Source: Zoroaster sp. YZ-2022
Lineage: Eukaryota; Echinodermata; Asteroidea; Forcipulatida; Zoroasteridae
Direction of reading: 5' to 3'
DNA: 64,000 bases
Assembly (NCBI GenBank): GCA_029582265.1
Contig: CM055831.1
Location: 186,001 to 250,000 of the forward strand
Shown here: positions 4,398 to 62,072 of the stretch, in pieces
Position numbering within the stretch: position 1 is the first letter of the stretch
How the letters are laid out: every line of letters begins with the position of its first letter
Notes under the pieces: generated by a model
Told to the model about the DNA's origin: nothing
What the model saw: the letters and a program-made list of their open reading frames with translations, nothing else
Database searches by the model: none
Program-made: the position numbers and the translations under genes

Positions 4398-4859
4398 GGT
4401 CAGAGATGGGAAGAAAAATTTATCCAACTAAGAGAAGCAGAAGGAAAGAAACGTGCAGGAAGAGTCATTTTCTGTAAGGGAATTGACATAGCACGAGGAA
4501 GTAATGGATCAAAAATATTCCTTGGAATGTTTGGAGACAACCCAGTTGCTGTTAAAAGGGTGGAGAGTGATTTCGTAGGCAAGGAAATACAAATATTCAA
4601 GTCTCTTAACAACATGCAACTTAACAATGTGTTAAATACACTCTTTGTGGAGCAATACGAAGATTTCACTCACTTCGTGACAGAGCTGAGCGAGTTTAAC
4701 CTACAAGAAGTGATTGAACGTCATGCTGATTTACCCATCCACATCAGACTTACGATCAAACGAAACAGGATCTCTGTCTTGGTTTCTTAAAAGGATTACA
4801 AGTGTTGCACCATCTGGATATCCTTCATAGAGATAACAAGCCAGAAAATGTGCTGCATG
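4398..4859 (+). pseudogene. IRE1/RNase L-like protein kinase exon, frameshifted
   Basis: The exon is bounded by a polypyrimidine-AG acceptor (AG at 4396-4397) and a GTAAGT donor at 4860. It shows kinase landmarks in order: a Gly-rich loop (ARGSNGSKIFLG), the ATP-binding lysine (PVAVKRV), an alpha-C glutamate (GKEIQIF), a hinge (VTELSEFNLQEVI) and a catalytic loop (ILHRDNKPENVL). The phrase 'GSxGSKIFxGxF...VAVKRV' is typical of IRE1 and RNase L kinases. The reading frame shifts between about 4715 and 4745, so HRDxKPEN lies in a different frame from the N-lobe. The rest of the kinase is absent, and gypsy sequence begins about 30 bp past the donor. It is either a broken gene or a duplicated exon interrupted by a retrotransposon. 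Confidence 0.75.
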
Positions 4860-4891
4860 GTAAGTCTGTATTCAATTATCTTTTACGCTCA

Positions 4892-5800
4892 GGTAGTTGT
4901 AGCGCTGGACATAATGGGTCCCTTACCTGAGACAGAAGATGGTAACCGCTGGATACTTGTCATAGGCGACTACTTTACCAAATGGATTGAAGCCTATCCA
5001 ATGGTTGACACTAAAGCAGAAACAGATGCTAAATCTCTTGTCGAAAACTTTGTATGTCGACTAGAATTACACTCTGACCAGGGGAGAAATGTTGAATCAG
5101 ATGTGTTTTCAGAAATGTGCTGTCTCCTGGGCATTCGTAAAACCCGAACCACCCCATACAATCCAAAATCAGATGGAATGATAGAGCGGTTCAATAGAAC
5201 CCTCATCACTATGGTTTCTACCATGATAGAACCTCATAAGCGACAAAAGGATTGGGATCAACAGCTACCTTATGCAACATTTGCATACAGTTCTACCCAT
5301 CAACAGAGTACGGGGAAAACACCCAACATGATGATGTTTGGGAGAGAAACGAATTTGCCCTTAGATTTGACAACAGTTACTGTAAACGTTACACAGCCTA
5401 TTCCTGAGGGAACAGATTATGCTGAAGAATTGCGATACAGACTGCAAGCTGCCCATGAACGGGCCCGTGCTCAGCTTAGGGTCAGTGCCAGGCGGCAAAG
5501 AAAGGCTATGACCGAAATGTACAACCCTGCTAAAAAGAAGCTAGGGTGTGTGCCCAAAACTAGAAAGCCGCTGGGAGGGTCCATACCTTATCGTAAATAA
5601 ATGAAGGTCGTACATTACGACCGATTAAAATTGTACGAGGGAGAGCCCCTTGAATTGTGGAAACCTCCAACAGTTGATGCGGCCCCAATAGTTGAATCAG
5701 TAGACTTAAGTGAAGTTGTCGGTGAGCGGGAACAGATCCCTTCCGAGCTGATTATTGTAGAGAACCATTATGTTAATGAAGGTAACAGTGCATGGGACAC
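4892..5800 (+). pseudogene. Gypsy-type retrotransposon integrase fragment
   Basis: The translation gives the retroviral-type integrase core with its DDE residues: ALDIMGPLPE (first Asp), ELHSDQGRN (second Asp) and GMIERFNRT (Glu). ATFAYSSTHQQSTGKTPNMM follows, as in gypsy/Ty3 integrases. The stretch between FVCR and LELHSDQG is shorter than usual, suggesting a small in-frame deletion. A TAA at 5598-5600 interrupts the frame just before KVVHYDRLKLYEGE, the typical integrase C-terminal motif. No gag, protease or reverse transcriptase precedes it, so this is a 5'-truncated fragment. Coding resumes at 7085 after an insertion. Confidence 0.88.
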
Positions 5801-14125: not shown

Positions 14126-15978
14126 AAGATATCAGAACTTTCTGTAACACACTGAGTGAAACACGTATGAATCCTCGCATATATTGTAAGATCTGTCTAT
14201 AACTTATAAAGTTCTGTGTACTGTCATGTCGCTAGTCCAGATGATGTCTGTCCTGCCTGGCCTGCTAGATACATCATTTTATATTTTCAAATTGTTTTGA
14301 ATCACAGTTAAGTCTCTAGTTTCTGGTCATCGGTCGGCTTCAAAATCGGTGCGGTGATGCTTTTTTTTTCGTTTCATTGCAAAAAAAAAATAAAAAATAA
14401 AAATGCCGACGTGTGGGTCTGAGGCGACGCACGCAGAGACCAGAAACCGGAGATTGTTTAGAAAAGTACATTTGTCCGTTAATAGGTTAGGGAACAAAAG
14501 CCTTGCTTCACCCTAAACTAAATGTTGTCTCGCTTGACCTTAAACATATCTTTATTCACCATAATTTCTTAATATAATTTACAGTTATGTAACGTTAACG
14601 GATGTTTTTGTATTTTAATGACAGCATTAAAATAAACGTATCAAAAAACAAAACAAAATAGGCATTCAATAAAAAATAAAATTGACACACCAATTAAGAT
14701 GTAATCGTTTGTTTTTGTGATTTTAATAATAAAAGAAAATCATTAGGTACTCGATATTCATTTTCTTTTCCTGAAATAAAATAAACAGTATGAAGGCTCA
14801 AATATATTTGCATAAATTGTCGAAATTATTAAACAGACTCCAGGGGTGGTGACATGACGAATCTAATCTGAAAAAAAAAAAAAACTATCAATAATTAGAT
14901 TGTTTTCAATGACAAACTGAACGGTTATACTTATCAGTACATGTACATTGTACAAAATGTACGTGTATATTTTTTAGAGTGGTCATGTCCGTTTTCACAC
15001 TTGTATCAAAGCCACAACCCTCCCCAAAATCCAAACACAAAGGCCCTAGTCAACCTTTTGTCAACTTACGGCAGATTAGTAGGGGATTACAGCACAATAA
15101 ATTAGTCCTTTGTCCTACCAGCAATATCTGCCAGCTCCAGCTCGGGCCATGAATATACGCTCATGACGAAACTCCTCAATGTGCAGTGACCCGTAGATAA
15201 TGAGCTCCTTACTTTCCAGTAGGCACAAAACTTGAGTTACCGTGAGTACCCTCAAGGTTTAACCGCAGGTTAGAATTAGATGTCTTCCCTAAGCACAATT
15301 CATAAAATTATATTAGATACATGTGTGTACAATCTTGGCCCATAATTCAATACATCATTACAGTAACTGTGTTACATGTACAGGAAAACATTCAATTTTA
15401 AATGTTGCCATGGCCTGAAACCTACATGTTTTATGTCAATAAATCCTACTCATTTTACACGGCTGTTTCACGCGTATGTGACGCGGGTAAAGAAGTTTTC
15501 CCAGACCGTAGCCACTCATGCATAATTCATGTCAAAAGGATGACGTCACGCCAATAATGGCTGCGCCCACAGATCACAGAGCTGACGAAAACAGGGTCGA
15601 AATATCAGCTAAATTAAACCTTCACACGAAGGAAATAGACGTTCTATTAAACTTTTCTGATGAATCATAATTAAATTATACTCTTGTGGTTAGTGGGTGC
15701 TTACAAAAATTTAAAAGCCGGAAAAAAAACAAGTTTTACGTCATATTCGTACATCGTCTTTTGTTGTTCGAAAGATTCAAACGACGTTCCAAAAACCACC
15801 CTTTTTACTTAACAGGGGCTAGTTTTAACTTTTCAAAAAGGATTATTAAAACGAACTACTATGTTCACTTTTTAAACGTTTAATCTCATGTAGGACATTT
15901 CGTTTAAGTATTCAATACCGTTATTGAAAACTTGTAAAAACCGAGGCCTAACAAAACTTCCATTAAAATCGTTTACTA
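14126..15978. other. Intergenic stretch, one imperfect hairpin
   Basis: No supported gene is seen. An imperfect inverted pair around 14315-14450 ('agtttctggtc' / 'gaccagaaac') frames A/T homopolymers. The remainder is AT-rich. Confidence 0.5.
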
Positions 15979-16768
15979 CACTGCAAAAACTTGAGTGTTA
16001 AAAGTAACACCAACTGTGTTAATTTTTATTCTTTCCCGGTATCTATATGTGACAACACCCTTGGTGTTAATTAACACCATTGCTTAGAATTAATTTTTAT
16101 CAACACCAAACTTGGTGTATTTTTGACACTATGTATCGGTGTTAATGTATTACAATTGGTGTAAAATGGATTCTCTACCAGTATCGATATGTGACAACAG
16201 CTATGGTGTTAATTAACACCAATGGTTATAATTAAAATTGTTAACACCATTTCCAGTGTATTTTAAATAATGCTGTACATTTAACAATTTTGAGCGTTTT
16301 GTGAAACCAAATTAAAATCAGTTGATTGGGGGGGGGGGGGGGGGTATAATGCAAGCCTACATGAACTAAATGCTATGATACTAAAAGTGCATCACAGTTA
16401 TTAAAATCTTGAGATACAATTAGATTAATTAATTGTAATCTTTTATTGAACAAGAACATTAGGCCTAAACATGAGTGCATCAAATGCAGTACAAAACATT
16501 GTAACTGGTAAAACTTCAACACGTACAATACAGCCTGTGTACATGTACACGTAATGTATATTGTCACTTTTAATTGACCAATCATTATTGTCGATCTATC
16601 CGCGCAAGCGCATTTCATGTTTTTAAAACTGCTATAAATCAACACCACAGTAATACTTTTTCTACCAGCCCAATTGAATTTAAAGGGTGTTATTTTAACA
16701 CTGATAGAATCACCACAACGGTTACACCAGTGTAGTGTTAACCATTTAACACCCGAGTTTTTGCAGTG
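15979..16768. mobile_element. CACTG-ended MITE with GTGTTAA repeats
   Basis: The ends are CACTGCAAAAACTTGAGTGTTAA and its inverse (CGAGTTTTTGCAGTG at the right), flanked by TA on both sides. The first 280 bp and the right end contain many copies of GTGTTAA/TTAACACC. There is no ORF. A G-run of about 15 sits at 16329-16343. The terminal design matches the larger element at 37178-41165 (CACTGTAAAAAA, TA duplication), suggesting one superfamily. Confidence 0.75.
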
Positions 16769-17008
16769 TAACGTTCCGTGCAGACGGCCCAGCCGCAGTA
16801 ACTTCTTCGCTGGCAATCCCATTAACTCTATAATTTTGTACGGTGTTGAGTGGGCACCGGTGATATACGTCAGAACGGCGCGCTATGTAAATACTATTTA
16901 CATGTCTATGTAAATTACTACTCAATTGAGATTCCACATGGTGTCACCGCAATTAGTCTTACTATTATCATCCTCACCATGCAAAGCTACAAGTTTTACC
17001 TATATAAA

Positions 17009-17441
17009 TACGACATAAAACACAATAAAGGGGGCCACTTTGCATCTGTCACGTTAGCAGTTTTTTTTAAGTACCTGAAACCGACCAAAAAGTGTTTCAA
17101 CATGTGAATGGACATGCAGGCTTATACTATAACTAATTTGAGTTGATTTATTTTATTTTTTTATTGTTTTATTTATGTTTTTACCCTCAAATTTCCATAA
17201 AAATTGGATGGAAAAAGTTACCGCACTTTTCCGTCCATTTGTTGATGGAAATTTTAGGGTAATTAAAAAAAAAAATAGTAATAATCAACTCAAATTATCT
17301 TTAGGATAAGCATGCATGTCTATTCAAATGTTGAAATTCTTTTTGGGTGGTTTCAGATATTTAAAAAAAAATTACAACATTAGAAAAACTGCTAAGGTGA
17401 CGGTAGGAAAGTGGCAGGCCCCCTTTATTGTGTTTTATGTC
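17009..17441. repeat. Large near-perfect palindrome (430 bp)
   Basis: The outer ends are 'gacataaaacacaataaagg' and its inverse at 17416-17441. The arms remain complementary through 'tgaaaccgacc', 'gacatgcaggctta' and 'tttgagttgatt' to a centre near 17225. It is a typical fold-back MITE with no coding content and could extrude a long hairpin. Confidence 0.8.
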
Positions 17442-17566
17442 ATACACTAGTTTACACAAAACTTTCATCAATATTCTACACAGTAGATTATACGGGAGTA
17501 CAGTGATAAAAAAACGCACAGGAACAAAGATGAGTTTCAGTGATATTTACACATATTTTATTCATT

Positions 17567-18490
17567 ATGAGTTTCAAATTCCATCAACAAGCTCTAGGAA
17601 AAATATGTACAGTATGTACAAACAGAATCACAATTCACGGTTCTCGTAACCTTCCAAAGGAAACCAGTGAGTATAGGAAAGAATTATTGAATAATTTCGG
17701 TATAAGTGTATGGGAAGATTCAGCGGACCAGCATCCATGAAAAATATGTGAAAAATGTTCAAGAAAACTAAGACACTGTAAATCTGGAGAACGATTTTAT
17801 ACTGTTCAGAGCCTCAAAGATAAACAGCGAATCCAACAAAATTGACCAAAGCGTACACGAACTGGAACTTGGTTCGTGTGTGAACTTTTTACGCAACAGT
17901 CTAGAGGAGGACCGCAGTCTAAACCAAAGGCTGGTAGGCCTAAATCAACAATAGCTTGTACACAAACTTTGCCCTTTTCACTGAGCGATGACAATATATT
18001 TCATCAATTAAGTGATGCGCAACATCTGGAATATCCCATTAGTTTTGAAATCAGTGGTCATCAGTGGGAACAGTCACTCTTCATTTGTAGTATTTGTCTT
18101 TGTATACTGGGAAAGCCATCAGTTCAGACACCGTGCCAACATAACTTCTGTGCGCAATGTTTAACACAGTGCTTTAAGCATTCGTTAAGTCCAAACATCA
18201 ACTGCCCAATATGTAATCAACATGTACAGTATAGCAGCATCACTTCAAGTCCCAGAGTGGTGTTCAACTGGACAATCTAAATGTTGTGTGTACAGCATGT
18301 GATGGCATTGGACAAATAACCCGATTATTGGTTTACTCAATGAGCAGGGTGGTGAGCTGATTCACACTGAGTTTAACCGCACAGGGAGAATCGTCAATGG
18401 TATGCGGGATGACCTGGAGCGACTGATGTCCATAATGAGGCTGCATCACATCAGTACCGCACCAGAAGTGCGGTCAAAAGTCATCAAGCC
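17567..18490 (+). pseudogene. RAG1-like gene, internally deleted copy
   Basis: It starts MSFKFHQQALGKICTVC, parallel to the start of the larger copy at 26361. It continues with the RAG1-type N-terminal zinc region (HP..KICEKC after an in-frame stop) and a RING finger (CSICLCILGKPSVQTPCQHNFC through CPICN). A C2H2 start in a shifted frame (VVCTACDGIG) jumps near 18320 directly to the C-terminal motif GLLNEQGGELIHTEFNRTGR. The catalytic Asp exons are absent, so the copy has a clean internal deletion plus stops. An A-run of 15-16 follows at about 18495. Confidence 0.85.
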
Positions 18491-20697
18491 TGCAAAAAAA
18501 AAAAAAAAATAGAAAATAAATAAAGGATAAGCAAAATGAAAATATCATCTTCCTGCAAATTCCACAATATTCATTTTTACATGCGTTCCACAGAGTTTGC
18601 AATATTTGCACAGGAACAGTACATAAGTTTCCACAAAATTCCCCCGTGAAGAAATAAAGTTCCCCATACAGGACTCGCACTGGGATTTCCACAGCTATGC
18701 ACAAGCTGTATACCGAGTGTTTTTGCCCACAATGTTTACTTACCTATTCTATGATGCTCGCCAGTACAAAAAAAAGGCATTCCACCTGATTGATTTGGTA
18801 AAATTTGTGGAGAATTGCTACTACTTTACCAACACGTTTAAACCTCATCAGCCGCCATGCGCATGTGCGCTGATACGTCAGTTTGCCCAGTGTAGTTAGT
18901 TATCTGTGTGTGTATATACGTTTGTAGTATGTGCACGGTCTAGTCTCACGGCCGTGCAAGCGAAATTAAATTGCGCCCTCTGTCGTTGAAATAAAGCCAA
19001 TGCATTAACTACGTCACCGACGTGCTGTGCGTTGACCTGTGTTGATCTCATCTAGTGAATATTTAAATAATGACTTTCTTCTCCGTTTCCGATTGGTTAA
19101 ATTTTATTTACTTGTTAGCAAACATTAGTCATGTGACTGTAAATTATATAGAGACTATAAAGATATGCAAAAATTGAAAAATGAATTATTCATTCCAAAT
19201 GTTCCCTCTTGTTGACAAGAAGCGGTAAAATTCATGTCATGTGGCCACGTGACAAAATTATCGCCATTCGTCGTCGTTTTTCTACGGAACTGAAGTTTTC
19301 TCCGATGTATGGTGTGCTTTATCAATGAACTGATGTATTTCTCCATCGACTGAAGCAGTATGAAGGTAAAGCCAGCGGGAGTTTTCTGAAAATTATGGCT
19401 TATTTAAGGGAGTAATTTCGCCGTGTGGGGTTTTTGGTACAGCATGCCCGTGCATAGTGCATGATGTACCGTAGTGTAGCATGCAATGCCATACACGTGT
19501 ACACATGTACATGGAGGAAGGAAAGCCTCCATGGTTTTAATGTACGAACATGGAGGAACGAAATTTCCTTCCTCCACGGTACGAATAGCCATGGAGCATG
19601 GAGGAAAGAGCTAGCCCCATGCCATGGGATCACACTTGCACTTGACTATGTTGACTTTGTCTTAGTTATAATAAGTGATTTTTTTTTACAAACCACTCTG
19701 TTTAGTGTTAGTACAATAAGTAAGTCAGTATACACAATATCCAATCATTTTGTTTTGATCTGATTCTGACCATTTTATTTGTTATGTACAAAAATGTAGT
19801 TGTGGACATGGACATCAATCATAAAATGGTGGTGGTGGTACTGGTAGACCGTAGGGCTATTTATAAATATGATAAAAATGTATTCAGGAGAAGAATGTTG
19901 TATCAAACCGCCACTTTTTCACTCATCATACTAGAAGTAGAAAGCCAATATCTTCCCCGAGCAGGTAAGATAATTAATGGTTATAATTAGTGAAAAAGCG
20001 GCAGTTGGATACAACATTTTATCAAAAATTAGTCCTACCTACGGATGTAGCTACGTCATGTACATCTAAATTCGTGCCACAATATAGTACTTAGTAGTAG
20101 GGATACGTTATGCATACTAGGCCTATTTTTATTTATTTTTTTAATTTGAATAATTAAAATATTATTTGATTAGGCCTACAGTGCCCGAGGGTTTTTCTGT
20201 GTATTTTCTTTAACTACCGTATGCCTCAGAGTCATGAGCCAACATATTGTAGCCACTGGTCATGTATTCTGGTTGTACTTTGCATATTGTATCTTGTGCA
20301 TGGAAAAATGTACTACCCTTTTCAACTACTTACTGTACTTTTTGTGGAGTACTTCCCACTGATGTATTTGTACACACATGCGAACAAGAACACGCGTTGG
20401 TACGTAGATCAAATAAATGTGTATGCATGAGGTATAGTAAATCAAATACGGCAACCAATGATTCTTGCATCGGGGATATTGAACAATTGATAAATCTACC
20501 CTCCATAGACGTTGTGATAAGTACTGTATACTTGGTGCTTTTTTGTTCTATCCACAGAATTTGTAAAGTACCGTGCTAACAATGTACTTTATCAATTTGC
20601 AATACCTTTGTAAAGTAAAATAGCCTACATACAGTACATGCCTACTGACATGATCATTAATTTCAATTGTAATTCTTTCTCTTCAGGTGTATCTCAG
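18491..20697. other. Repeat-bearing intergenic region
   Basis: No supported gene is seen. Two structures stand out. At 19500-19630 'catggaggaa' and its inverse recur about five times. At 19895-20016 a hairpin has arms 'gttgtatcaaaccgccac' and 'gcggcagttggatacaac', probably a small MITE. Confidence 0.55.
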
Positions 20698-20999
20698 TTA
20701 GTCTTCCGATAGCTGGGGGACCATGCTTTTCTGGACTTCAGGGGTAGTGCTGAGGTGATGCCTTTTCACAGTAGTCATGAGACGCTGAAGGGGGTCTTTC
20801 ATCCCATGGACCACTCTGCCAGTTCGATTGAATTCGGTGTGGATGAGCTCACCCCCCTGTTCGTTCAACAAACCGAATCCTGTCCGAAATCGCTGAAGCT
20901 GTTCCAGTGTGTGGTCCTCAAGAAGGTGGAGCTTGGGGGTTATTGAGGCCTTGGGGAAGCTGGATCTGTAGCAGGCCATGAAGGTCTTGATACAGGTGC
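20698..20999 (-). CDS. RAG1-like terminal exon with His pair and catalytic Glu
   Basis: ITPKLHLLEDHTLEQLQRF contains an HxxxxH pair, as in the RAG1 zinc site (H937/H942). About 15-20 residues later is GLLNEQGGELIHTEFNR, aligned with the RAG1 block holding the catalytic Glu (SEGNESGNKLFRRF). The exon ends LSED-TAA. The same block occurs in the copies at about 18330 (+) and about 59530 (+). Confidence 0.8.
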
Positions 21000-21445
21000 C
21001 TTAAAATTAAAGTGAGTAAAATGTAATAATTTGTGTTTATTCTAATTATAAGGAGGGGTTATAAAGTCTGATGGATGCAAATTCGTTATCACATTCATTC
21101 ACTTCTGCCTTGTTGCGTATGCAATGCAGATGTTATGTATTTTTCCGTAATCCACTCGCATTTGTGTGATTGAAAAAGATATTACATACCAATATTGGTT
21201 AGGTCTTGCTGTGTGATTGGCCTGCTATGATTAATTCCGTGATGTACGTCTGAAAATTTCAGGAAAACCTCACTGAAGATGTTGCCTATTTTAGCGGCGT
21301 CACGAACAAGCTTCTGATGTTGCCTGATGGGGATTTGGTCGCATTCCTGCTCTTCAAGGACTTTACGGGGAGCTGTTGTCAATGCTCGGATGACATCAAC
21401 CTGCCGAGTAGAATCAACAATACATGTAAATTGTAAGTAGTTCAC

Positions 21446-21675
21446 AGGTGGATTGGGGGGGGGGGGGGGGGCAAGACCCCACCTTTAAACAAGGGGTTAA
21501 ACAATGAAATAATTATAAGAAAACACACAAAAAGAGGGGGTCAGAGTGAAATTTCCAGAAAAAAGCCCCCCCCCCAAAAAAAAATTAAATAAAAAAGGAA
21601 TAACAATTTTCACAACAGTGGTTCAGTCAAAATCTCCATGGGGTACCCCCCATGGAGATTTTGAATGATCCATTT
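21446..21675. repeat. Homopolymer-rich stretch with short palindrome
   Basis: It holds G- and C-runs (about 21456 and 21568) and a perfect inverted pair 'caaaatctccatgggg' / 'ccccatggagattttg'. It lies in the intron between exons 8 and 9 of the RAG1-like gene. Confidence 0.5.
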
Positions 21676-23155
21676 ATGGTAATTTTATCAATGATTATAA
21701 TTGAAATGTTGTAAAGATATTGTATATTCCAAGAACACTAAAATTCCGACATTGTGGTAACCGAGCATCTTAGACAAACAGTGCTTTTTTGCAATTTTAT
21801 TAATCGACCATGTAATGTAGTTGAAGGCCAACGAGCAATGAGCATGTGAGTGCGGTAATATGCCAATTTGTCGGAAATACTATTCACAAAATTTTATTTA
21901 TTTTATTGTTATCAAATTATACAGGTGAAACAAACCAGCACGTACTTGGCAACACTTGTGAACGTGATTTCCAACAAATGCTCTGCCATGATATGCCTGT
22001 CTGTGGATTTTGTGCGCCTGCAGTGCATCGTCCAAACTTCCAACAACTGGACCACACCCAACAGGAAGGTTGATCTGAGTCTCTTCCTATAAAAGAAATG
22101 GTAAAAGAACATGAAATATTATGTTCAGTATACTTTTTCATATAGTAAATGTTCAGGTTAATATGGATCCTAAAACAGCGTCCATCTAATGAAAGTTCAC
22201 TTACAAGCTCCTGAAGTTGGCGCCGAAGTTCGAATGCCCTTTTGGCCAACTCTGTGAATACATGATCAGCATTCTGATGGTTTCTTTGAAGGAGGTGAAG
22301 TGGAAGTTCTTCTTCTATTTGCTCCAGTTCAGCAGCTTTTGTGGCTTTTTCGTCCTCCATTTTTACTTGATGTTGGCATTCTTCCATTGCACGTTGCTTG
22401 AAATTGTTGTCCGATAAATCACTGGAGTCGGAGTGCAATACACAAAGCTTAAATAGTCGCACGTCCAACTCGTGACAACTCTCCTCCAGCATGTCATAAA
22501 GCTTTTTGAAGATGCCAAGCGACATGTGGAGAGTTGGGAGGACAACCTGAGAAAAAAAAAAAAAAAAGTTAAAATGCTCAATCTTGTCTACAAACAGGCA
22601 TGCAGAAAACAAATGCATTTCTGTCTTGCCTTTATTTTCTATATGCACAGATTTTATGAAGACATTAAAACCCAGCGTGTGGTAATTTTCTTTATTATTC
22701 AGATTTTTAGATGGTGTTTGAAAAAAATGATTGCCATATTTTTATTTTGTAGGTGTATCACTTATGACAGAGACTTACATGATCTACTGGGATCATCAAA
22801 ACAGGCATGGCTATGACACTGTTGGAGATGTCTTTTGCCCTTGATTTTCTGGAGCCGTCTGCAAGGTATGTTTCAAAGTCAGCTTGGATGGACTCGAGCG
22901 TTCTTGATGGGAAGTTTGTTCTCTCTGTTAGTGGCACTTTCATTTGCTCCTTTGATGCAGTGCAGTACAGGCAACAGTGACGGGCTGAATACAGGGGAAA
23001 GATTTTAAGTGAGTTTGCATTTTTTTTTGGGGGGGGGCATTTAAAAAAAAATGATTGGGGATTAGGCAGTGCAATTACACTCTGTAGAATAAAAAGTGCT
23101 ACCGATTCATTGTGATTAGAAATTGTTATTAGAAATAATGTTAGAAATTGCTCAC

Positions 23156-23232
23156 CATTGCAGCTGCAGATTCCATAAAGCTTGGTGAGCAGCTCATAAT
23201 CGCCAAAGGTGAAGAGCTTTATTGACTTTCCC
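23156..23232 (-). CDS. RAG1-like exon with second catalytic Asp
   Basis: A 77-bp exon encodes GKSIKLFTFGDYELLTKLYG, with both splice sites consensus. The Asp in FGDYEL occupies the place of the second catalytic Asp (D708 region). The next exon begins RHCCLYC, corresponding in position and spacing to the RAG1 zinc-binding pair (YICTLC, C727/C730). Spacing between the two Asp codons is shorter than in vertebrate RAG1. Confidence 0.7.
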
Positions 23233-23463
23233 CTAGTGTGCAAAAATAGAATAAACAAATGTGTTGGCTCAAGATTAAATTGTGCTAATCATTAGTATAT
23301 TTTATTCAACAGGGATATTTGCAGTGTGCATGTTCAACTCCAATGTCCGGCATTCACATAAATTAGTGAGTCGAACCACATCAACACCAGGCCCCTTTTC
23401 ATTGCAGAACTACAGACATACACAGGTAAATCTAAAATGCTTTCCTGGTAGGTCTTTTAATTA

Positions 23464-23609
23464 GGGAATAACAGTGTGGGGACCCGGTCTTCACTGCGTG
23501 GTAATGACCGGGTTGGTGGCTTGCCGCTGTTAATGGACCGAGCCGAAGGTGAGGTCCATTAACAGCGGCCAGCCACCAACCAAAGTCATTACCACGCACT
23601 GTTATTCCC
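23464..23609. mobile_element. 146-bp hairpin MITE with ATTA duplication
   Basis: A nearly perfect palindrome (GGGAATAACAGTG to CACTGTTATTCCC) is centred near 23537 and flanked by identical ATTA at 23460-23463 and 23610-23613. It lies in an intron of the RAG1-like gene, so it inserted without breaking an exon. Confidence 0.85.
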
Positions 23610-23880
23610 ATTAATAAATACCTTTTTCATGAAAGAAATTATTAAAACGGTCAAAATGTGTATGCTGGTTCAGGGGCCATTTATTCGCTAGTTCCCAAAG
23701 CTGGTCTTTATATCACATGTTAATACACCCCCACGTGATTGGGTTTTGTCCAAGGTATTTATTAATACCATGTATTGAGAATATGTTTGGGTGTCACCAA
23801 ACAGTATTTGTATGCATGACTGGAAAATAAACAAACAAACATGTTGTGATCATTGGTAATAAAACTGTTGAGCTTTTTAC

Positions 23881-24120
23881 CTCCACTTCATTTTGGCTAG
23901 TTGAGCCACTTGCTCCATGATGGGGGCAGAACTCGCTGTAGATTTGCTGTCGAGTCATGTGCCTCAAAACAGGCAAACACAATAGTGTTCCTTGTCGAGT
24001 TGGGATGGTGTGTTGACAATTTGGTAGCACATCTTAAATGATGTACCACCAAAGTCCCCCCCAATCTTGATCCATATTTCATCCAGAGGAATGAACTCGT
24101 GCCATGTCAAGGATCCATTT
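23881..24120 (-). CDS. RAG1-like exon with first catalytic Asp
   Basis: The exon reads EIWIKIGGDFGGTSFKMCYQ, then in shifted frames FACFEAHDSTANL. GGDxGG followed by a beta-strand is the conserved block aligned here with the first catalytic Asp of the RAG1 core (D600 region); the alignment is by eye. Frame changes follow 'caccatcccaactcg' and precede the donor. A G7 run at the motif is a likely indel hotspot. Confidence 0.7.
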
Positions 24121-24926
24121 CTGAAAATACATTTTCACTTTCATAATCAATGCTTTGACAATTAAAAAAAGCCTATTTTTATCAAGTGTTTCTTTAAAAT
24201 GTTGAAACTTTCCCCAACAAATATTCTATAGCTGCACCTAAATACTAAAAAAATAAGTTCCTTAATCATGTGTAATGTTCTAACATTTCTTCTTTTGTGT
24301 TTCCTTATTCATTCAGGAAAAGAGATCATAAGAGAACACAAATTCACCTGTCATGCCTGTCAAGATAGTCAAGGACCATGGTGGAAACATCCTTCACGGT
24401 AACACAGGGAACCTCCTTTGTCTCAAAACCGTGGGAGCCATTAGCATTGCTGGATTTGAACAGAAGGGGAACCATTTTGCCGATGATGTTATCCTTCAGG
24501 AGTATGCTTTGCTGGGTTCTCATGGCGCGCTCTGATGGAAGAGATACTCCCATAGTCCCTAGGTACCTGTATAACAGCATGAACAGCAAAACATTTCCAG
24601 TTAATAATGTATTATTACTATTTTTTGTTTTTAATTTCAAGTTAAAAATGTGTTATTTTGCTAAAAATGAAAAGGGGTTGTTCCTTTCTGATTAAATTGT
24701 TGTATACCGTACCTGCGAAGTTTTCGTAGTTGCTCCCATGCGAATTGGCACTCTCGCATCATGGCTAGTGATCGGTTGACACTCATAGCCTCCTCACTTT
24801 GTTGGGTTACACTGCTTGATTCATCCTCCATAGATTCGGAGTGCTTGACCAGCTGCATATATGCAGGCTGAATAAAGATGCAAATTTGTTTTATTTTGTG
24901 ATGCTAAAACTGCACAAAGATGTCAG

Positions 24927-25195
24927 GCACGGATGCAGAGGGGGAGGGGGTGGTCGAAACACCCCCCCCCCGCTCAGACACCCCCCAATGTTTTTTATAA
25001 CAATTAGTATAGTAACAATAACAAAGATGACATTCTGCAGGGGTTTATTACATGTATAGGCCTATGGTGAGCGTTATCAATGCGAGACTGGCTAGAAAGC
25101 ATATTCCGCATTATGATTTTTTTGTGAAAAAAACATCTGACGGGCCTGACCGCCCCACCCTGTAAAAATTCCTGGATCCGCCCCTGGATGTATGT
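24927..25195. mobile_element. GGATCC-type MITE in RAG1-like intron 1
   Basis: The imperfect inverted ends are 'gcacggatgcagaggggg' on the left and the inverse of 'ccaggggcggatccagg' on the right. C- and G-runs lie beside the left end. A comparable element sits in the piggyBac gene at 35472-35633. Confidence 0.45.
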
Positions 25196-25352
25196 AGTTG
25201 GTAAATATTCTGCATTTTGTGTTTATATTTTTTTTATTGTAATTTAAATTTTCTGTTTCTAAATGTCTGTTTTTATGGCTTTAAGAAATTCATAAGTATG
25301 TTGGTAATTTGCGAATATGAAATGTTTAAAACATGAAGGTAGAAATATTTAC

Positions 25353-26361
25353 CCTTCCAGGTGTTTTCAGACGTGCATTTGGATTCTTCCTTAACTTATG
25401 CAGAGTCCATCTGTCAGCTGCTGCTTCTATCTCCATGGGGATGGGGGTTCCCTTGATGTGCCTTGATGCCATCAATTTCAGTAACCTGGCTGCTGCTGTT
25501 ACATCATTATTATTGGGTTCTGTACAGGGTAGGGGATCTGTAGTAGGGTAGCACACAAATGATGTGGCTTTTGGGCGTGCTTGTGAGCATACATGAGTTT
25601 TCATTTGTTCAAGATTGCCGATTGTGCCACAAGTAATACAAACTGTAGGAAGTGTTGTTAGCTGTACTCTTAGAATCCGTGGACATCTGTTGACATCATC
25701 GATACTTACTGATGTATTACAAATGGGGCATGGAACAGTATTAGTTGCACGGTGCTTAAACCACGCCAGCAAACATTCAGCACAGAAGTGATGCTCACAA
25801 GGAGTTTGGACTGTTGGAGTTCCCAGAATGCACTGACATATCGTGCAAATAAATAGGGTTGCCTCAGATGAACTGTTGCTGAGAATGTCAAGATTATGGG
25901 GGACGAGTTCACTTGAGCTTGCAGGTGTTAAACAATTGAAGCGTGGTATTGTACCTGTAGGGATTGTGTCATGCTGTTTGTTCACATTACTGAGACCTTT
26001 GCCACTTCTCTTTCTTTTTTGGGGACGTCCCCCACGTTGTTGTTTTGAGAATGTCTCACACACAGGGCAGTGACCAGTTCTAGTGTGCTTATCCCACTTA
26101 CCAAACACAGACGTTTCTCTTGGTCCACTGCGAGAACCCGCTCTTTGGTGCATAAGGGATCTCACAACTCCGACACAGTTTATTTGGGTGAACAAGGGCA
26201 TCATCTTTCCAAATATTTTGATGAAATACTATTTCAAGTTCTTTAGCATAGTTGATACACTCATTTTTGATGCTGCTACTTGAGCTGTAAGCTTTAGTAT
26301 TTATTCGCCCACATACTCTACACAGTTTATTTAGAGCTTGCTGATGTAGTAAGAAGCTCAT
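25353..26361 (-). CDS. RAG1-like exon 1: N-terminal zinc region, RING, C2H2
   Basis: It starts MSFLLHQQALNKLCRVCGRI. The pattern CxxC, then HPNKLCRSC, then KWDKHTRTGHCPVC, then a basic RPQKRKR tract is the arrangement of the vertebrate RAG1 N-terminal zinc region. A C3HC4 RING follows (CTICQCILGTPTVQTPCEHH, then CAEC, then CPICNTSV), and then a C2H2-like finger (CITCGTIGNLEQMKTHVC), again as in RAG1. A frame change near 26140 separates the first two zinc pairs from the rest. The donor is CTGGAAGG|GTAAAT. Confidence 0.85.
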
Positions 26362-26635
26362 GATGATTATGCTTTTATGTAGCCATATTTCAGTTCAGTT
26401 CACTTCAGTTGTTCTTTAATATTTCAAATAAATAACTATTTACATGTATTCATCTGCACTGTATATAACTTGCCTGGTTTGTCATTATTTTGTGTTGATA
26501 TACCCCATTAGGCAGATAAAATAACCTTTTCATTCATCAAGACATATTGGTGACACACGGCGAAGTGATGACACTGCTGTGGTGTATGCATTGCGCAATG
26601 CATATAAATAATTTATTTGCTCATAATTTACATTC

Positions 26636-27061
26636 AATTCGGGCGATTCACAATGCGGTGCGCCCTCAAGCGGGCAGCAGGGAGAGGCCAATTTACGCGA
26701 TGCATGATGGGTAAAAGTCGACATCTGGCATGTCTGGCGCGGCGCTTGATGGCCGGATTACACAGTTAGTTGCGAATTCTTGATTTTTATCATGCGATTA
26801 CTTTATTTATAACTATGGTTTATTTCTGTGAGTCTGCAAAGTGCCTTGCACACACGTCCAAACTCAAAAGTATCGAGAAATACCCATGGATGATGGACAT
26901 AAGGTGGGTTAAATGGCCACGAAATGACGCTGCCGTCTCAAGTACTAGTAGTAGCATGACTAGCCGCCATTTTGGAATTAATGTTGTCGACCGAAAAGTG
27001 AGAAATTAGCCTCTCCCTGCTGACCGCTTGAGGGCGCACCGCATTGTGAATCGCCCGAATT
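26636..27061. repeat. Inverted-repeat element near RAG1-like 5' end
   Basis: The arms of about 60 bp start 'attcgggcgattcacaatgc' and are inverted at 27003-27061. They share 'ggtgcgccctcaagcgg' and 'cagcagggagaggc'. The interior of about 300 bp has no convincing gene. It is probably a MITE; no target duplication could be separated from the palindromic ends. Confidence 0.7.
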
Positions 27062-27908
27062 CTCGCGCCACACAGATTGCGCGCAGCACGTACATGTACG
27101 TGTAAACAATGAGCGTGTGTACTGTATGCACAACGTATACGTACGTATACACACGACTGCATGCATACGACTATTGCTAGTAATTCCGTGAAATGCCATC
27201 ACTTCACCGCCCCTTTACAAAAACTCGCTGGCTTTTAATTCATGACTCAGTTTTATGTGGGAATAGCAATTATTTTAAAAAATTGAAAGACACATTTTTG
27301 GGAAAACTTTTGTATTTCTATAAATGGTAGTTTTAGGATAGCTATATTTCGAAAGTGTAAGTAAACTACGACGAATTTTGTCACACACACAATGTAGAAA
27401 ACAAGGTAATTTTCAAGAATTCCTCAAGCTATTTTTTCTAGTTAATACGCATAAAAGTTGAGATCAACAATAATATACACTCGGTTTTTATTCAAAACGT
27501 TTTCTATACATCAATCTTTTAATAAAACAAAAATTTGTTGGGTTTTTTGACGATTTTTCCAACGACAAATGTTGGACGCCATCTTGGATTTTACTGGGAT
27601 ACGTAACGTCATGATAGAGGGCGCACTGGAGTAGGGAAATGCTGCGCCAACGAATTCAGAAAAGTTTTTAACGTAGTGGCTATGGGGGTGGAACAGCCGT
27701 GGTCTGGTGGCGACGTGATGATGATCGTCGAACTCTGATGATCGCCAGCGTCTTCGGCTACTAATCAAAGATGCCTCAGCGTTAACTATAAACTTTGTTT
27801 TTTATGATCACGGGTCAAGTTTTCAGTTGCGCGACCATCAATAACGAAAAATGCAGGTCGCATGAAGTCATAGTGTGGTATCGGTGCGCATGAGCATCAG
27901 TACTTATC

Positions 27909-34139: not shown

Positions 34140-36848
34140 TAGTGTATAGGGCGTTAAGTAGTGTGAAATTCTTGAAAGCAATTCCTTTGCCCATTCACGC
34201 AAAGGAACACCTTGCATGCTAAGCATTTTATGCGGGTTTTACCTGGACATCCTTGGTTCCTGCATCTTGCCGAGTTTTTCAAGTCAACACCTACAGGTGC
34301 TTTGCTGATTGTCGTCTGAAGGCAATGATTGGAACAGGTGTAATTCCCCTTTTGTTCCCAACTTCTTCTTCATCACTACTGGAGTTTGACTCCGACTCAG
34401 AAGAATGGACATCAGTGTTTATTAGATTTAATCCCACGGCAACCCGAACATCATACAGTTGCAGTTTGGTTTGTGGATGGTCAGTGCGGAATTCCAACCA
34501 AGAATTGGACAGAGCAAGATCTAGGAAATGCATCATTACTCTTACAGGCCATTTTCTGGTCCGTGATTTAACTCCATGATAGGAAAGCATTCTATCGCAT
34601 AAATCCACACCACCCATGGACTCGTTGTACTGTGTGACAATAGCTGGCCTACTGATGTCCACATGTTGTTTGTCTTTTTGGACCATCGTTTACAGGTACC
34701 CAAGGGTTCCACACCAGACACTGCTGATGCCATCAAGATAGATTTGTTATCAAACCACTTTACTACAGTGATATCATTTGATGATACAAACTGTTCAGAT
34801 GATCCTCTCATCATCTTTTTCATTATTTTGTCATCAGTGAATTTTACTGGAATTTTGTTCTTCATTAGGGTACCTGTAAGTAAAATTCCCCTTTCCTTCA
34901 AATGAGAAATCATGGGCAGAGTGGTAAAAACGATCACAAATACCCTATGGCCAGCAGTAAGTGTCTCTACAAGGTGTAGTACAGCCCCAACTCCTTCACC
35001 TGCTTTTTTACCATTCATCTCATAGTTCTCAAATGTGCTTTGCACCCTGATATATTTCAAAATCCAATACCAGGCCTGATGCTCCTGCAAGTACAAAGTT
35101 TTTTAAACCTGTAGGATGGGGCTTTCTGGGGACATACTGTCTTGCTGGACACCTTCCTGTAAATGCTATCATTTGCTCATCGATACTGACATGAACTTCT
35201 TGTGGCAGAGACAGGCAGGAGCTCCGTACCTTTTCAACAAATGGTCGAACTTTCCATAAACGATCAGCAGTTATGACATCGTCATCTACGGTGTTGTTGT
35301 CCACCACTTCATGTAGTTCCTGATCTTGAAGAACCGATCTCGGGTCATGGTGTTCGCAATTACTGATATGCGAGTTGACCGCTGCCAATACATGCGGATG
35401 CGCTTCATCTTTGATGGACCCCACAAAAAGAGAAGTTTATAGTGCTTAAAATGTCCATGCACACACTGCAGCATTGGTGGATCCAGGGGATGGGCAGGGG
35501 TGGGGGGACAGGAGGGTGGCACATCAACTTTGAGCAAGAATTCCAAAATTGCCCAAGTTGATAGCCGTGCCACCCCCACCCCCCCTCTTCTCTTGCCCTG
35601 TGCCCCTATTTCTGGGACCCTGGATCCACTTACATGAAGCAACAACAACACTGTTAGGGGAGAGAGCTTAATAGTAAGTTTGTGATTGCTATGAAGTGCT
35701 GCACAATTGTGTGGGTTTAGCTCCAATCATGCTAACCTTCATCACTTTGCTATGTTTTATGGAAATGTTGTACATTACAGATGTATTAACTTGTTCAACC
35801 CAGTCCGTATACGTACATCAGTACCGAATCAATGCATGGGTACAGCTCCTTTAACAATGCTTAGTTTCAGTGACTGGCAACTACCAAACAAAATTTTACT
35901 TACACTTATGCAGCCCATCAAGATGTTCACTCCAAGAATTTTTTTAAATCTCTGTTGGCGTGGTGTTCAGCAGAACCCCTTTGGTCTGATGGTACTTGCG
36001 GTTTGTCATGTCTGATATCAACCTGTACTGTCCATCGTCGATGTACTGCTCAAAGTAATCAGATGGTGACAAATGAAACAGACAATGACAATGACAAAAC
36101 TGAGATTTGGAACATCCGCATTCAAAAATGTCGAAATGTATCTCCAAATCTGGTTGAAAATGTATAAGTGTTTACACAAACATGCATGTTTACCCATAGC
36201 ATTAGTTTCAACTAAATAAATTCTGAAATTAGGTTCATAGGCCTCGTTAGTTTACCTTGAAAAGGTAATTGCACTTGAATACAGACACTATTGCCTTCAA
36301 CTCATTAACAGTTCTTAAATAAGAACATTAAATAGTTACTTGTACAACAAATGTAAATGATGTTAAACAATGGAAGAAAACAATGACCTCTTTCAAAAAC
36401 TGCAAACTCAAAACTTCAGTTTAGTATCTGTAAACCTGTCTTCTTTTGCAAATGAGACTCAAATCGAAATTGAATGTGAACACAAACATTGATTTGAAAC
36501 ATGTAAGTAAAACAAAGAAATAGCAAATGTAACGCTCAATACGTTTTAATGAAATTTTTGTTCGCACAAAGCAAACTGAACATTTGAACAGTTTCAAGAC
36601 TTTGAAACAGTCTATTACTCATTTGTTTTCTTCCATATTTCTTTGCGTCCACGTTTAGTAGATGGTGTATCATCATCACTACTATCTGGTTCATCACTAC
36701 CACTAGAGCTACCCTGAGATTCCCCACTAGTGCTAGTATGAGCCAATGAATCATCATTGTCGAATTCGTCGTCAGATAAATCCAAATCCGATTCATCCAG
36801 CAAGTCTTGAAGTTCCTCACTAGTCAAATGCTGTCTCGGTACTCGCAC
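34140..36848 (-). pseudogene. piggyBac-family transposase gene, degraded
   Basis: Pieces in order on the minus strand: an acidic N-terminal exon after a cctag acceptor (36848-36615, SSGSDEPDSSDDDTPS); an exon with SPSDYFEQYIDDGQYRLI (about 36147-35870); the core with [20 protein letters not shown] (first catalytic Asp), WFDNKSILMAS and MGGVDLCDRMLSYHG; and a Cys-rich C-terminal finger (CRNQGC, CLACKVFLC, CFQEFH) near 34150-34260, in a shifted frame. The place of the second catalytic Asp (normally DNFFTS) reads VIVFTT. A MITE sits at 35472-35633. Frameshifts lie near 35945 and 34290. It is clearly non-functional. Confidence 0.85.
35472..35633. mobile_element. GTGGATCCAGGG-ended MITE in piggyBac gene
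   Basis: The perfect inverted ends GTGGATCCAGGG and CCCTGGATCCAC bracket about 160 bp of G/C-rich sequence, inserted between piggyBac coding pieces. Confidence 0.65.
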
Positions 36849-47037: not shown

Positions 47038-48006
47038 CTAGTAGCCCGACGCCCTTCCTCCCCGCCCTACAACAACTTGCAGAACGTTGTGCAAGTGGCC
47101 GATGTACTTTCTGCACTTTTCTCGTGTGATCTTGGTAGACCAGTATTCTTGGATGCTCTGGATAAGTTCAGCCGTAGAAGATGGTTTTACATGCTTCCAC
47201 AAGTGGTTTTTCAGCCCGGCCCACAAGTTCTCGATTAAGTTCATGTCTGGCGACTCAGCAGGTGTTCGCCACCAGTTAATGCCAAGATCTTGCATAACGC
47301 GCCGCGCTTGCAGGCTTGTGTGCTTTAATAGGTTCATTGTCTTGCTGAAAACAGAAAAGGCTTCGCCCAATGGCGCAAAATATTATTTGCATAATATTTC
47401 GCATCCATAATTCCTTCGAAAACACCTATGCCAGTTGCACCTCGCCGAGATATTCCAGCCCACACGTGGACTTTATGCGGATGCTTGGGTTTCCCTTTGA
47501 GTACAGCCGGCATATTCGCTTTCCGGAAACACCGTTTGGTGTGTCGTTCGATTTGGATCGAAGACTCATCTGTCCAGAGCACATCATCGAAAGTGTCCAT
47601 GTTTGCAACACGACAACGCTGCGCAAATTCCAAACGCTTGGGTCGGTTGGCATCTCGAATGAGTTGAAACTACCTTGTTCCCGTCAAGACCCATCCAAGC
47701 TTCCTCCGTGCCCGCTGGATCACGGATTGCGAAATATTTGCAATCCTGACCGCTCAGCTCATTATTGCGCAAAAGCTCCCGATCGATGATGTTTTTAACT
47801 TGCGCCATAATTTTGCTGCTACGACCAGATCTTGGCAAATCAGCCAGACATGAACGATTCCACACTGTCTTTAGGAACTTCGAAATCCCACTCAAAGAAG
47901 CAGTCACGCCATCTTTCTGAAGAGCTGAACGTATAGCTTGTCTGGAGAAACCCCTGGCATCCAACAGAGCGATGCGTTGACGAGTGAAGTCGCTGTATCT
48001 TGTCAT
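47038..48006 (-). pseudogene. Tc1-like transposase, frameshifted
   Basis: It starts MTRYSDFTRQRIALLDARGF with paired helix-turn-helix motifs (LSGISKFLKTV, LPRSGRSSK). The catalytic residues appear as LWTDESS (first Asp), QQDNEP in another frame (second Asp) and SPDMNLIENLW (Glu), a DDE pattern of Tc1 spacing. At least three frame changes (near 47850-47650, 47640 and 47340) break it. The region is GC-richer than its surroundings. TIRs could not be placed with confidence. The unusual point is the histone stem-loop directly after its stop codon. Confidence 0.85.
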
Positions 48007-49517
48007 GATGAAGGGACGTTCGGGTCGGAATGAACGGTGAGCAGAAATTTATTGCTTTTATACACTTGCTTGCCTTGGGGATACGCCTTTTGTTTAAAGT
48101 TATCGCGATAAAATAATCATGCACGGAAGGTTATCCATAATTATTCACAGATGAACGCGTTAATATCGCGTTCATTTTACCATGTCAACCTAAACAAATG
48201 TTCAGTTAACGCGATAAACGTGTACATGTACATTGTACACAATGTGCACACACAGAACATGTATGTCCACTGCACACGTAACGATCATGCACCGATGCCA
48301 TCACGTAAGGTTTTTGCTATGTATTATCATGAACAAACACACCCGATCATGTTTCTTAGAATTGTTAGATAATGGGGATTTATTTTTTAACCAGCCTTAC
48401 AAACACAAGGGGTCATGGTTTTGTTTGTGTTAAATTGTACATTGGTAATGACAAATAATGATTCTGGGCTCACTAGCATAACAGTAGTATGAGTATGTGT
48501 TTATTTTATTTGTATTACTTTGTAATATTATATTATGACATAGCTCCCAAATTTGACCCCATTCATTTGTCTCATTTACATGTTAGTTTTTTGTACATGT
48601 CTGGACATGTGTACATGTACTGTACTGCCCATGCCCTGTACATGTCATTGTACACAGTTCCCATGCACTGTACATGCATACATTATATTTATATTATTTT
48701 TAAACCATATTTGGACTTCAATCTTCATGTATTAAGGTGACGTCCAGGATTTAACAGAAAGTTTGTTAAATACGGAAAACAAATATTTTGTGTAAAATCA
48801 TAAATTGCCGATTTTTTTTACCTGTGTGAAGCTGCTGAAACTCTCCAGTATAATCCCATGACCAAATACAATGCATCTCAACGAGGTTTAAATTTCAAAA
48901 TATAACTTTTAAATTAGCGTTTGTAATGAAATAATCCCAAGATTTAGCGTTAAAGAATTATTTTAGTTTTGATAGCTGTTTGTCACTTGAGTGTTACAAC
49001 AAAAAATACGCCATTGTCGCCACATGTGTGTCGGCGTACAAGTGAAGAGCACACATAAAAACCGCTGCCTGGAATATTATGTGCCGCACATATGCATCCG
49101 TTTTGTCAGTTCCGTACTCGCATACACTAAATCATTTTTAAAAATTAATGTTTCTGGACTAAGTTATACACCAAATTAAAGCTCTTGATGAGAGAGAGTC
49201 AGTGGTACAATTTGTTTTCAAATATCTATTTTAGTTCTTGAGATAATTTTTATAGGCTTTTAAAATTGGTAAAATTCCAATTACTTGTGCCGCCGATTTT
49301 GGGCATTTTAGAATAAATTGTACCAAGTTATACCAAAAATTAAGTATATGCGAAGTTATACCTTAAATTGAAGCTGGGAATAAGGGAAAATTCAATGATG
49401 TTATTTGTTTTCCAAATAAGTAGTTTGGTTCTTCAGATATTGGCTTTTAAATGTTGTAATACTGTGCAATTTTGACCATTTTCGTCGTCAAGATCAGGTT
49501 TCTAGTTGAAGCCCACT
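48007..49517. other. Intergenic region with CTGTACATG-rich repeats
   Basis: No supported gene is seen. 48215-48260 and 48590-48680 are rich in short palindromes built on TGTACA and ACATGT. The rest is AT-rich. Confidence 0.5.
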
Positions 49518-58914: not shown

Positions 58915-59760
58915 GAAAATGCGAAAGCTGATCTACCCTTTGGTACAGGTCCAGTTGCTGGTAGTCCAGATGTTGTTTTAAAGCAACATATGGTAGAGCG
59001 TCAAGCGTACCATGGAAAATCATTCATTGAAAACCACGTACATAAATGTTGCCAGGTAAGAACTACTACTATAACTATAAATCCTACTTGTAACAGACTA
59101 ATGTAACAATTTGGTTATTGCACATGTACGGCTATCCTTGATCACATCTCTGCTTCTTTATAATTCAACAGGTTAAAGTCATCAATGAACTCACAAGTGC
59201 ACCCCATAGAACATTGCAAGACATGGTCTGTGAAGACATTCCAGTTGTGCGTCACAAGGAGCTTTTTTCGTAAAGCTGCACAAGTCGGATTAGTTTGGGG
59301 ATATATTCCTCAAATTTGCTAACACGCATTTCGCCATCAACCATGCAAGGGCATTGACATCTGATGATTTGAGACGCATTGGTAATTATTCCTCTCATTC
59401 CTCACTCTTTTGTGTTGTACGGTATGTATCCAATCCCAAACAATGAGTAATTGAAATATTGTTTTCATCACAGATATGTGCATCAAAATTTTCATGGCAT
59501 TATACCGAGAAAACTTCCATAACTCATCCATTACTCCCAAAATGCATTTGTTGGAGAGCCATGCAATTGACCAGTTGACCAGGTTTAGTATGGGATTTGG
59601 CTTAATAAATGAACAGGGGGGAGAGCTTGATACATACAGAGTTTAACAGGACAGGTCGTGTAGTACAGGGAATGACTTTCAGCGACTGATGACAAAGATG
59701 AAACGTCACCACCTGTCAACCACACGTGAAATTCAAGCCAAAGTGATCTCTAGGGAAAAG
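58915..59760 (+). pseudogene. RAG1-like gene, third copy (last three exons)
   Basis: Exons lie at 58915-59055, 59172-59381 and from 59474. The first (LPFGTGPVAGSPDVV, then QAYHGKSFIENHVHKCCQ) is exactly 141 bp, the same as exon 8 of the large copy. The second is 210 bp versus 211 and has frame lesions around a T-run near 59264. The third holds ITPKMHLLESHAIDQL and GLINEQGGEL, then shifts frame before the rest of the catalytic block. Exons 1-7 are missing. It is on the opposite strand from the large copy. Confidence 0.8.
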
Positions 59761-60908: not shown

Positions 60909-62072
60909 TTAATATAATTTAGCAAGTTTAGATGGTGGAAATTGTACTTCTGATGGATGACAACTGTTCAATTCACCCGATTTCTTATATACGGATTCTC
61001 CTCCTTCAATCTGTTCGGCTGCACTTGCGATAAAACCTGTGAGTGGTCTTTGTTTATCTTTCCAAGATTGTGGATTTGATCCTAATGTATCCTGCGGTCT
61101 GGAACGTTTAACACCATAATGTGGAGCTAACCATTGTCCGTATCCTCCTGTTTCTTGCGTACTTTCAATTGCACAGAAATATGTAATATTTAATTTACAA
61201 TTGATTGGCATTGGATTATTTTGACTATCCAGATACGTTGGTAACCGAATATAAACATCAGGAGATCCACGTGGAGAACCACCAGTCAACGTAAACATGT
61301 CTTGAAATTGTGAAGTACCAGGGACATATTGCTGCCGTGTACTACTCGTATTACAACGCACTGGATTATCTGCTCTCATCGGTGCGTATTTGGTGTGCAT
61401 ATTATAATCTGGTAAGTATTTATCACTTTCTTCCCATGGATCAATATGTTGAAATGTTTTTGTTGCTATATTCGGATCAGAATCATGCGTCATTTCATCT
61501 TCTAAGGTCAACCATTGTTCTGGTAAAGATGTCGGCCACCATCCTGCTGTTCCATTCCACGTATGTGTAAATGGTTTTGTTGTCGGTTGATTGAAGAATG
61601 TATTGTCTCCTCGTCTTAGTTCGACGACTGCCCATTTTTCTGCATCTCCTAGCGTGATTTAATTCATCGAATCCGTTTTATGATGATACGCATATGTTTG
61701 TACTGTTTGCGTCACATCTAATTCTGGTGTTTCCAATGCCATTTCAGATCTGTTCAGAGTTTCGTGTGCTTGAAAATTAAAGTTGGGTAATGAAGTTGGT
61801 CTGTCTCGACCGTGAGCTGCAAAATAACCATCATTATCCACCAGGATTTCATATGCTTTAAGACTTTGCATAAAAGCTGTTTTGATGGTAGTTGCTCCTC
61901 CGAGTGTACACAATTGATCCATCATCGGTACTACATTGTCGATGGTAAAACCCTGACTTTTAATTCGCCATTTTTTAGCTGTCATCTGCATCACTCCCCA
62001 TTCACGTGGTGTCATGGCCGCTTTCAGAAAATTGTACGGCACATTGGTCAGACCGTGTTGTAGTTTAAATTT
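60909..62072 (-). pseudogene. Capsid C-terminal shell segment with one stop
   Basis: The frame opens around the heptamer at 62066-62072. It contains TPREWGVMQMTAKKWRIKSQ, the conserved 'TPxxWxxLxxxxxxxRIxxxxF' region of parvoviral capsids, and later VYIRLPTYLDS and INCKLNITYFCAIE near the C-terminus. A TAA at 61659-61661 interrupts it, with the same frame continuing open on the far side. It ends at 60909. The C-terminal tail ends in a Lys-Leu-rich segment. Confidence 0.8.

Follow-up and report, generated by a model that had tools for sequence, protein, structure and literature searches.

We analysed 64,000 nucleotides of the asteroid Zoroaster sp. YZ-2022 (contig CM055831.1, positions 186,001 to 250,000 of the forward strand; hereafter the window), in which a first-pass annotation had claimed a near full-length RAG1-like transposon gene. 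The gene lies on the minus strand, in ten exons from 26361 to 20698 as that annotation had placed them, with nine GT-AG introns of compatible phases and a stop codon at its end. A read-through model of the transposase, with the exons joined across frame breaks, has 966 residues and carries an N-terminal Cys/His region, RING, zinc finger, GGD, FGD, CxxC, LH, HxxxxH and GGE in the order of RAG1. The acidic motifs (GGD, FGD, NEQGGE), cysteine pair and HxxxxH named earlier recur in this order in the model and in its relatives. The exon layout and the length given earlier (about 965 residues) were correct, but the frame is broken in exons 1 and 4, which had been missed. Exon 1 breaks near 26160 and measures 1009 nt, against 1011 nt in an open copy of the gene, whereas exon 4 has frame shifts near 24017 and 23926 that restore the net frame at the exon end. 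An intron in place of the exon 1 break was rejected, as it would delete zinc cysteines kept in relatives and the exon differs in length in the open copy. The gene is not open in the window copy, which is disrupted and probably dead; the frame breaks could stem from assembly error.

The gene is carried by an element with a short and imperfect inverted repeat, the ends of which were set by comparison with near-identical copies. At two paralogous loci (L054 and L055) this target stands free of the element, with one GTCT each, while in the window GTCT is found on both flanks, so that the target-site duplication is 4 bp. A matching 4-bp duplication was seen in four of the seven copies with both ends readable (the window, L022, L031 and L032), and CAC or GTG stands at the ends read in the near-identical copies and in groups L030-L032, L033-L036 and L037-L038 (L039-L040 not included). 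Among nine near-identical copies (L021-L029), only in L021 are the ten exons all intact, with neither frame break nor stop codon; the spliced frame encodes 968 amino acids, and over 7.7 kb L021 shares 98.5% identity with the window. Genome-wide, the last exon gave 150 scored matches out of 896 candidates, with subfamilies at 59-100% identity pooled. Between the L021 and L031 genes, which represent two subfamilies in the same genome, 249/201/551 differences fall at first/second/third codon positions over 944 codons, and inter-subfamily differences fall mainly at third positions in all 11 copies compared. Taken together, the open copy, the many near-identical copies and this third-position bias indicate that the transposon family has been recently active. 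That the gene belongs to a transposon, as had been claimed, is confirmed by the ends, duplication, empty sites and dispersed copies; the genome-wide check proposed for intact copies and terminal repeats yielded the open copy L021 and the short inverted repeat.

Table 1 Features of the Chapaev elements in the window
Feature	Position	Strand	Remarks
Complete Chapaev element, 8755 bp including later 417-bp insertion	18947..27701	-	Similarity ends versus L021/L022; terminal CACGGC/GCCGTG; empty sites L054/L055
Target-site duplication GTCT, left	18943..18946	.	Single GTCT in paralogous empty sites L054/L055
Target-site duplication GTCT, right	27702..27705	.	Empty sites L054/L055
Left end, CACGGCCGTGCAAGC	18947..18961	+	Imperfect terminal inverted repeat; 8/9 first bases equal to right end
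Right end, minus-strand reading, CACGGCTGTTCCACC	27687..27701	-	
Exon 1	25353..26361	-	RAG1-type N-terminal zinc region, then RING and zinc finger; broken frame in window copy
Exon 2	24713..24867	-	Core begins
Exon 3	24348..24566	-	DUF1280 region
Exon 4	23881..24120	-	GGD with first catalytic Asp; window copy has two frame shifts that compensate each other
Exon 5a	23156..23232	-	Second catalytic Asp (FGD); aligns with RAG1 D708 region
Exon 5b	22779..22984	-	Zinc CxxC pair
Exon 6	22205..22546	-	LH motif and coiled-coil insertion
Exon 7	21946..22086	-	GNHVH region
Exon 8	21190..21400	-	
Exon 9	20698..20999	-	HxxxxH, catalytic Glu (NEQGGE), stop codon
Foldback (MITE-like) insertion, 417 bp, ends GGGCGATTCACAATG	26641..27057	.	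In 5' part of element; absent from L021, L027
Core-less Chapaev derivative, left part	15458..18946	+	Similarity to L055 restarts at 27702, to about 28519; far end not found
RAG1-like N-terminal region and RING of derivative, with stop codons	17567..18339	+	
Last-exon remnant of derivative	18327..18476	+	Abuts N-terminal region directly
Third Chapaev copy, last exons	58915..59754	+	Makes three copies in 64 kb

Relatives and likeness to RAG1

The 966-residue model was searched against 5.8 billion proteins, with scoring limited to the 8000 candidates that had the most words in common with it. Three proteins were among the matches scored, all from Asterias amurensis: two cover 99% of the model at 45-46% identity (the best at 46%, E 8.2e-274) and the third covers 28%. 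Alignment across 99% of the model makes it clear that the ten-exon gene is not a product of chance. The core of the Asterias relative, used as query (7999 candidates scored, matches at E ≤ 1 taken), found at least 34 proteins, among others from Asterias, Amphiura, Antedon, Holothuria, Patiria, Diadema, Lytechinus, Strongylocentrotus, Ptychodera, the sponge Ephydatia muelleri and Hydra. Thirty of 34 matched proteins form the family alignment; at E ≤ 0.01, Pfam finds DUF1280 in 30/30, RAG1_imp_bd in 8/30 and zf-C3HC4 in 11/30. The residues of the active and zinc sites are kept throughout these 30 relatives (CxxC in 28, LH in 27, HxxxxH in 27, the two Asp in 30 and 30, the Glu in 29), and the window model has them all. 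In a FastTree phylogeny of 28 cores, the L021 gene groups with two Asterias proteins (support 0.93), then with Amphiura (0.85) and Antedon, a placement that points to a sea star or near kin as the probable host. An NCBIfam scan of six relatives gave weak matches only, far under the curated cut-offs. Two divergent DUF1280 proteins, P0070 and P0072 (Hydra), retain both Asp and the Glu but have neither cysteine of CxxC nor the second HxxxxH histidine; the zinc site may have been replaced in them.

Exon 1 of the window, searched alone against the PDB, has RAG1 as its top match (1.9e-5) through the RING and zinc-finger stretch, with RNF38 next (1.7e-4), and a piece of a window exon matches RAG1_imp_bd weakly (0.0085). 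The family profile matches full-length RAG1 (9jpu) with an E-value of 5.3e-27 across RAG1 residues 101-385, in agreement with the earlier claim of a RAG1-type N-terminus as opposed to generic zinc fingers. Because profile positions 4-101 alone match RAG1 chain 21wb (4.3e-10), the likeness is not confined to the RING. The sponge protein P0063 on its own matches RAG1 residues 120-372 with an E-value of 7.2e-5, and RAG1 chains fill all six of its top places in the PDB. In a Pfam scan of four sponge proteins, RAG1_imp_bd scored 24.1 bits in P0060, above the cut-off of 23.3, and 22.6 and 16.2 bits in P0061 and P0063, below it; P0048 had no match. The sponge members could reflect horizontal transfer or contamination.

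The predicted core of the Asterias relative adopts a RAG1/Transib-type fold, with about 16% core identity to RAG1 in the structural alignment. The RAG1-like catalytic core that had been claimed is borne out by the family profile and by this comparison, for which the proposed structure prediction was run on the Asterias protein. The comparison also reveals a coiled-coil insertion in the core, encoded by exon 6; we know of no insertion of this kind in RAG1. Its 50 rows include no CACTA or Mirage structure, and it is uninformative on these two superfamilies.

Assignment to Chapaev

We interpret the window element as a recently active, autonomous-type cut-and-paste Chapaev transposon with a RAG1-like N-terminus and RING, with a probability of roughly 0.9. 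In the published accounts, Chapaev carries CAC/GTG at its termini, duplicates 3 to 4 bp of its target and has the motifs C(2)C, LH and H(4)H (PMC4079192), and DUF1280 is assigned to Chapaev, CACTA and Mirage having other families (PMC3985635). The element has a 4-bp duplication, CAC/GTG ends, C(2)C, LH and H(4)H together with DDE, and DUF1280 (PF06918, 9.3e-14, 52 bits versus a cut-off of 25); the Chapa-type order of a RAG1-like N-terminus then RING is seen through the family-to-RAG1 profile. C(2)C and H(3-4)H unite CACTA, Mirage, Chapaev, Transib and RAG1 as one diverse clade (CMC/CMCT; PMC12730594), and the deciding traits are therefore DUF1280, duplication length and the N-terminus. The last two also separate the element from Transib, which has a 5-bp duplication and no RAG1 N-terminal region (PMC7204232).

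The best surviving alternative, a true RAGL (ProtoRAG-type) transposon that has lost RAG2L, is improbable. It would accommodate the RAG1-type N-terminus with RING and a core fold close to that of RAG1, a RAGL trait found in the predicted model of the Asterias relative. RAGL, however, almost always has a 5-bp duplication and a convergent RAG1L-RAG2L pair, with kelch and PHD in RAG2L, and echinoderm RAG1L is described without the RING dimerisation domain (PMC7204232). Against this stand the 4-bp duplication with its two empty sites, the coiled-coil insertion, and PF12940 (the RAG1 family core), which has no match in the model at E ≤ 1 and none in the 30 relatives at E ≤ 0.01, while DUF1280 is present in all 30. 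No open reading frame (ORF) longer than 108 amino acids lies outside the gene (18947-20697, 26362-27701), and a domain scan of 10 of the 17 ORFs listed there found no kelch or PHD match, although a finely split RAG2L could escape both. This agrees with the first-pass annotation, which saw no adjacent RAG2-like gene. Its RAG1-like gene is RAG1-like in layout, but it is no member of RAG1 or RAGL, being Chapaev by duplication length and DUF1280.

Sequence likeness to RAG1 is far stronger in the N-terminus than in the core, as would be expected of a chimaera in which a DDE core with no special relationship to RAG1 had acquired a RAG1-like N-terminus; yet the predicted core fold is RAG1/Transib-type, and the two parts are found together in a sponge, a hemichordate and echinoderms of several classes, which makes a capture less probable still. 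A functional host gene domesticated from Chapaev, to which the introns and the coding constraint between subfamilies would be suited, is the least credible in view of the near-identical dispersed copies, ends, duplication, empty sites and broken window frame.

Several results pull the other way from the Chapaev assignment and its RAG1-like layout. Three of the seven copies with both ends readable (L021, L035 and L036) have no matching 4-bp duplication, C(2)C and H(4)H are not peculiar to Chapaev, being common to CACTA, Mirage, Transib and RAG1 as well, and the assignment was made from published descriptions. Single-sequence searches leave the core unlinked to RAG1: the full model has no RAG1_imp_bd and no PF12940 match at E ≤ 1, and its RAG1 matches in the PDB cover the RING/zinc-finger stretch only, with RNF38 close behind. 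Single core stretches are weak in profile matches (best i-Evalue 0.019, or 1.3e2 or worse in another profile search), and the first Asp (GGD) falls outside every sequence alignment to RAG1. Finally, the fold comparison, with Foldseek ranking via VIA-align, concerns the Asterias relative and not the window protein.

For a Chapaev transposon of this layout, the spliced transposase most likely binds the CAC...GTG ends, which would be cut by a RAG1-like DDE active site held by the CxxC/HxxxxH zinc site, and insertion would proceed with a 4-bp stagger. By analogy with RAG1, dimerisation through the N-terminal zinc region and RING is probable, and these parts may also serve as a ubiquitin ligase; a hairpin step in cleavage, if any, would have to be inferred. 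The scheme starts from what was observed of the exons and the ends of the element, from the 4-bp duplication with its empty sites, from the conservation of catalytic and zinc residues, and from the open near-identical copy and the many others; for the RAG1-like fold it starts from the model of a relative.

A core-less derivative and other elements of the window

The Chapaev element sits inside another Chapaev-derived element, on the plus strand. The start of this derivative at 15458 resembles the right end of the element, and L054 and L055 share it with different flanks. The derivative has no core, its N-terminal region and RING running straight into the last-exon remnant. Its junction gave 40 scored matches of 173 candidates including the window, each with 93-100% identity over 370 or all 371 bases. 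A coding role was rejected, since one stop codon is common to all 13 copies read (window included) and a second to 11 of them. These common stop codons suggest that the founder was probably already broken and its copies moved in trans. With its last-exon remnant and Chapaev-type end, the derivative most likely arose from a full Chapaev by internal deletion. Contig C1 (107 of 1002 Mb) is strongly enriched locally, with 69 of the 150 scored last-exon matches (counted by eye), 60 of these in its second half, and 16 of the 40 derivative matches.

Elsewhere in the window, a parvovirus-type phospholipase A2 domain (PF08398, 2.6e-12) lies in 63028-63999 with open frames alongside (60912-63999, minus strand). 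This region is probably an endogenous parvovirus-like element, the neighbouring frames being read by eye as capsid-like. A retroviral-type integrase (rve) is present at 4791-5597, a piggyBac-type transposase (DDE_Tnp_1_7) at 35032-35436, and a frame that by eye looks Tc1/mariner-like at 47041-48048, of which 47587-48048 has no Pfam match.

Comparison with known systems

An element comparable to the derivative, N-RAG-TP of Aplysia, was reportedly described by Panchin and Moroz in 2008. It is wholly RAG1 N-terminal-like, and RAG1 has been proposed to derive from its recombination with Transib (PMC8355894). The derivative at 15458-18946 is likewise a RAG1 N-terminal-like sequence in a transposon without a core, but differs from N-RAG-TP, as known here from description, in its last-exon remnant and Chapaev-type end. 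It shows that N-RAG-TP-like elements can arise by deletion from a full Chapaev, and by analogy N-RAG-TP itself may have arisen in this way. We met no amplified core-less Chapaev derivative in the open-licence literature, which was not searched for it by name.

CACTA/EnSpm and Mirage share CA...TG ends, C(2)C and H(3-4)H with the element and fall in one clade with Chapaev, Transib and RAG1 (PMC12730594), but have core families other than DUF1280 (PMC3985635), and the excerpts mention no RAG1-like N-terminus for them. Vertebrate RAG1 and RAGL (ProtoRAG) agree with the element in domain order, catalytic and zinc residues, predicted core fold and terminal CAC; they differ in the mostly 5-bp duplications and convergent RAG2L of RAGL (PMC7204232) and in the low core identity.

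The link between Chapaev and RAG1 is by itself already known (PMC12730594). Two Chapaev subgroups have a Chapa domain, a truncated RAG1 N-terminal part, followed by RING, and their core is distantly related to Transib, from which an ancestral fusion was inferred (Kapitonov and Koonin 2015, PMC4411706). The value claimed for the origin of V(D)J recombination thus stands in that the element bears on how RAG1 was assembled, but it is not the first link of RAG1 N-terminus, RING and core in Chapaev, which that paper had published. What we add is a Chapaev element with clear boundaries, of which the same genome holds an open near-identical copy, so that an enzyme with the whole layout of RAG1 becomes assayable, and a predicted fold that gives structural support to the published sequence link with RAG1 and Transib. 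In the open-licence literature we met neither a fold-level comparison of the Chapaev core with RAG1 (queried with AlphaFold) nor sponge members with a RAG1-type N-terminus (queried with sponge). Whether RAG1 was put together from two transposons or came down as a unit is a question to which both the sponge relatives and the core-less derivative are relevant. Tentatively, and with the odds slightly against it, the complete RAG1 layout may predate the sponge/bilaterian split in a Chapaev-type transposon, RAG1 having inherited non-core and core from it, and N-RAG-TP would then comprise internal-deletion derivatives and no building block fused to Transib. The Chapa/RING Chapaev elements share with ours a RAG1-like N-terminal zinc domain, RING, a distant Transib/RAG1 core, ends, duplication and motifs; set against their descriptions only, the Zoroaster element extends them to a further host lineage with a fuller anatomy, comprising ten exons, ends, empty sites and an open copy.

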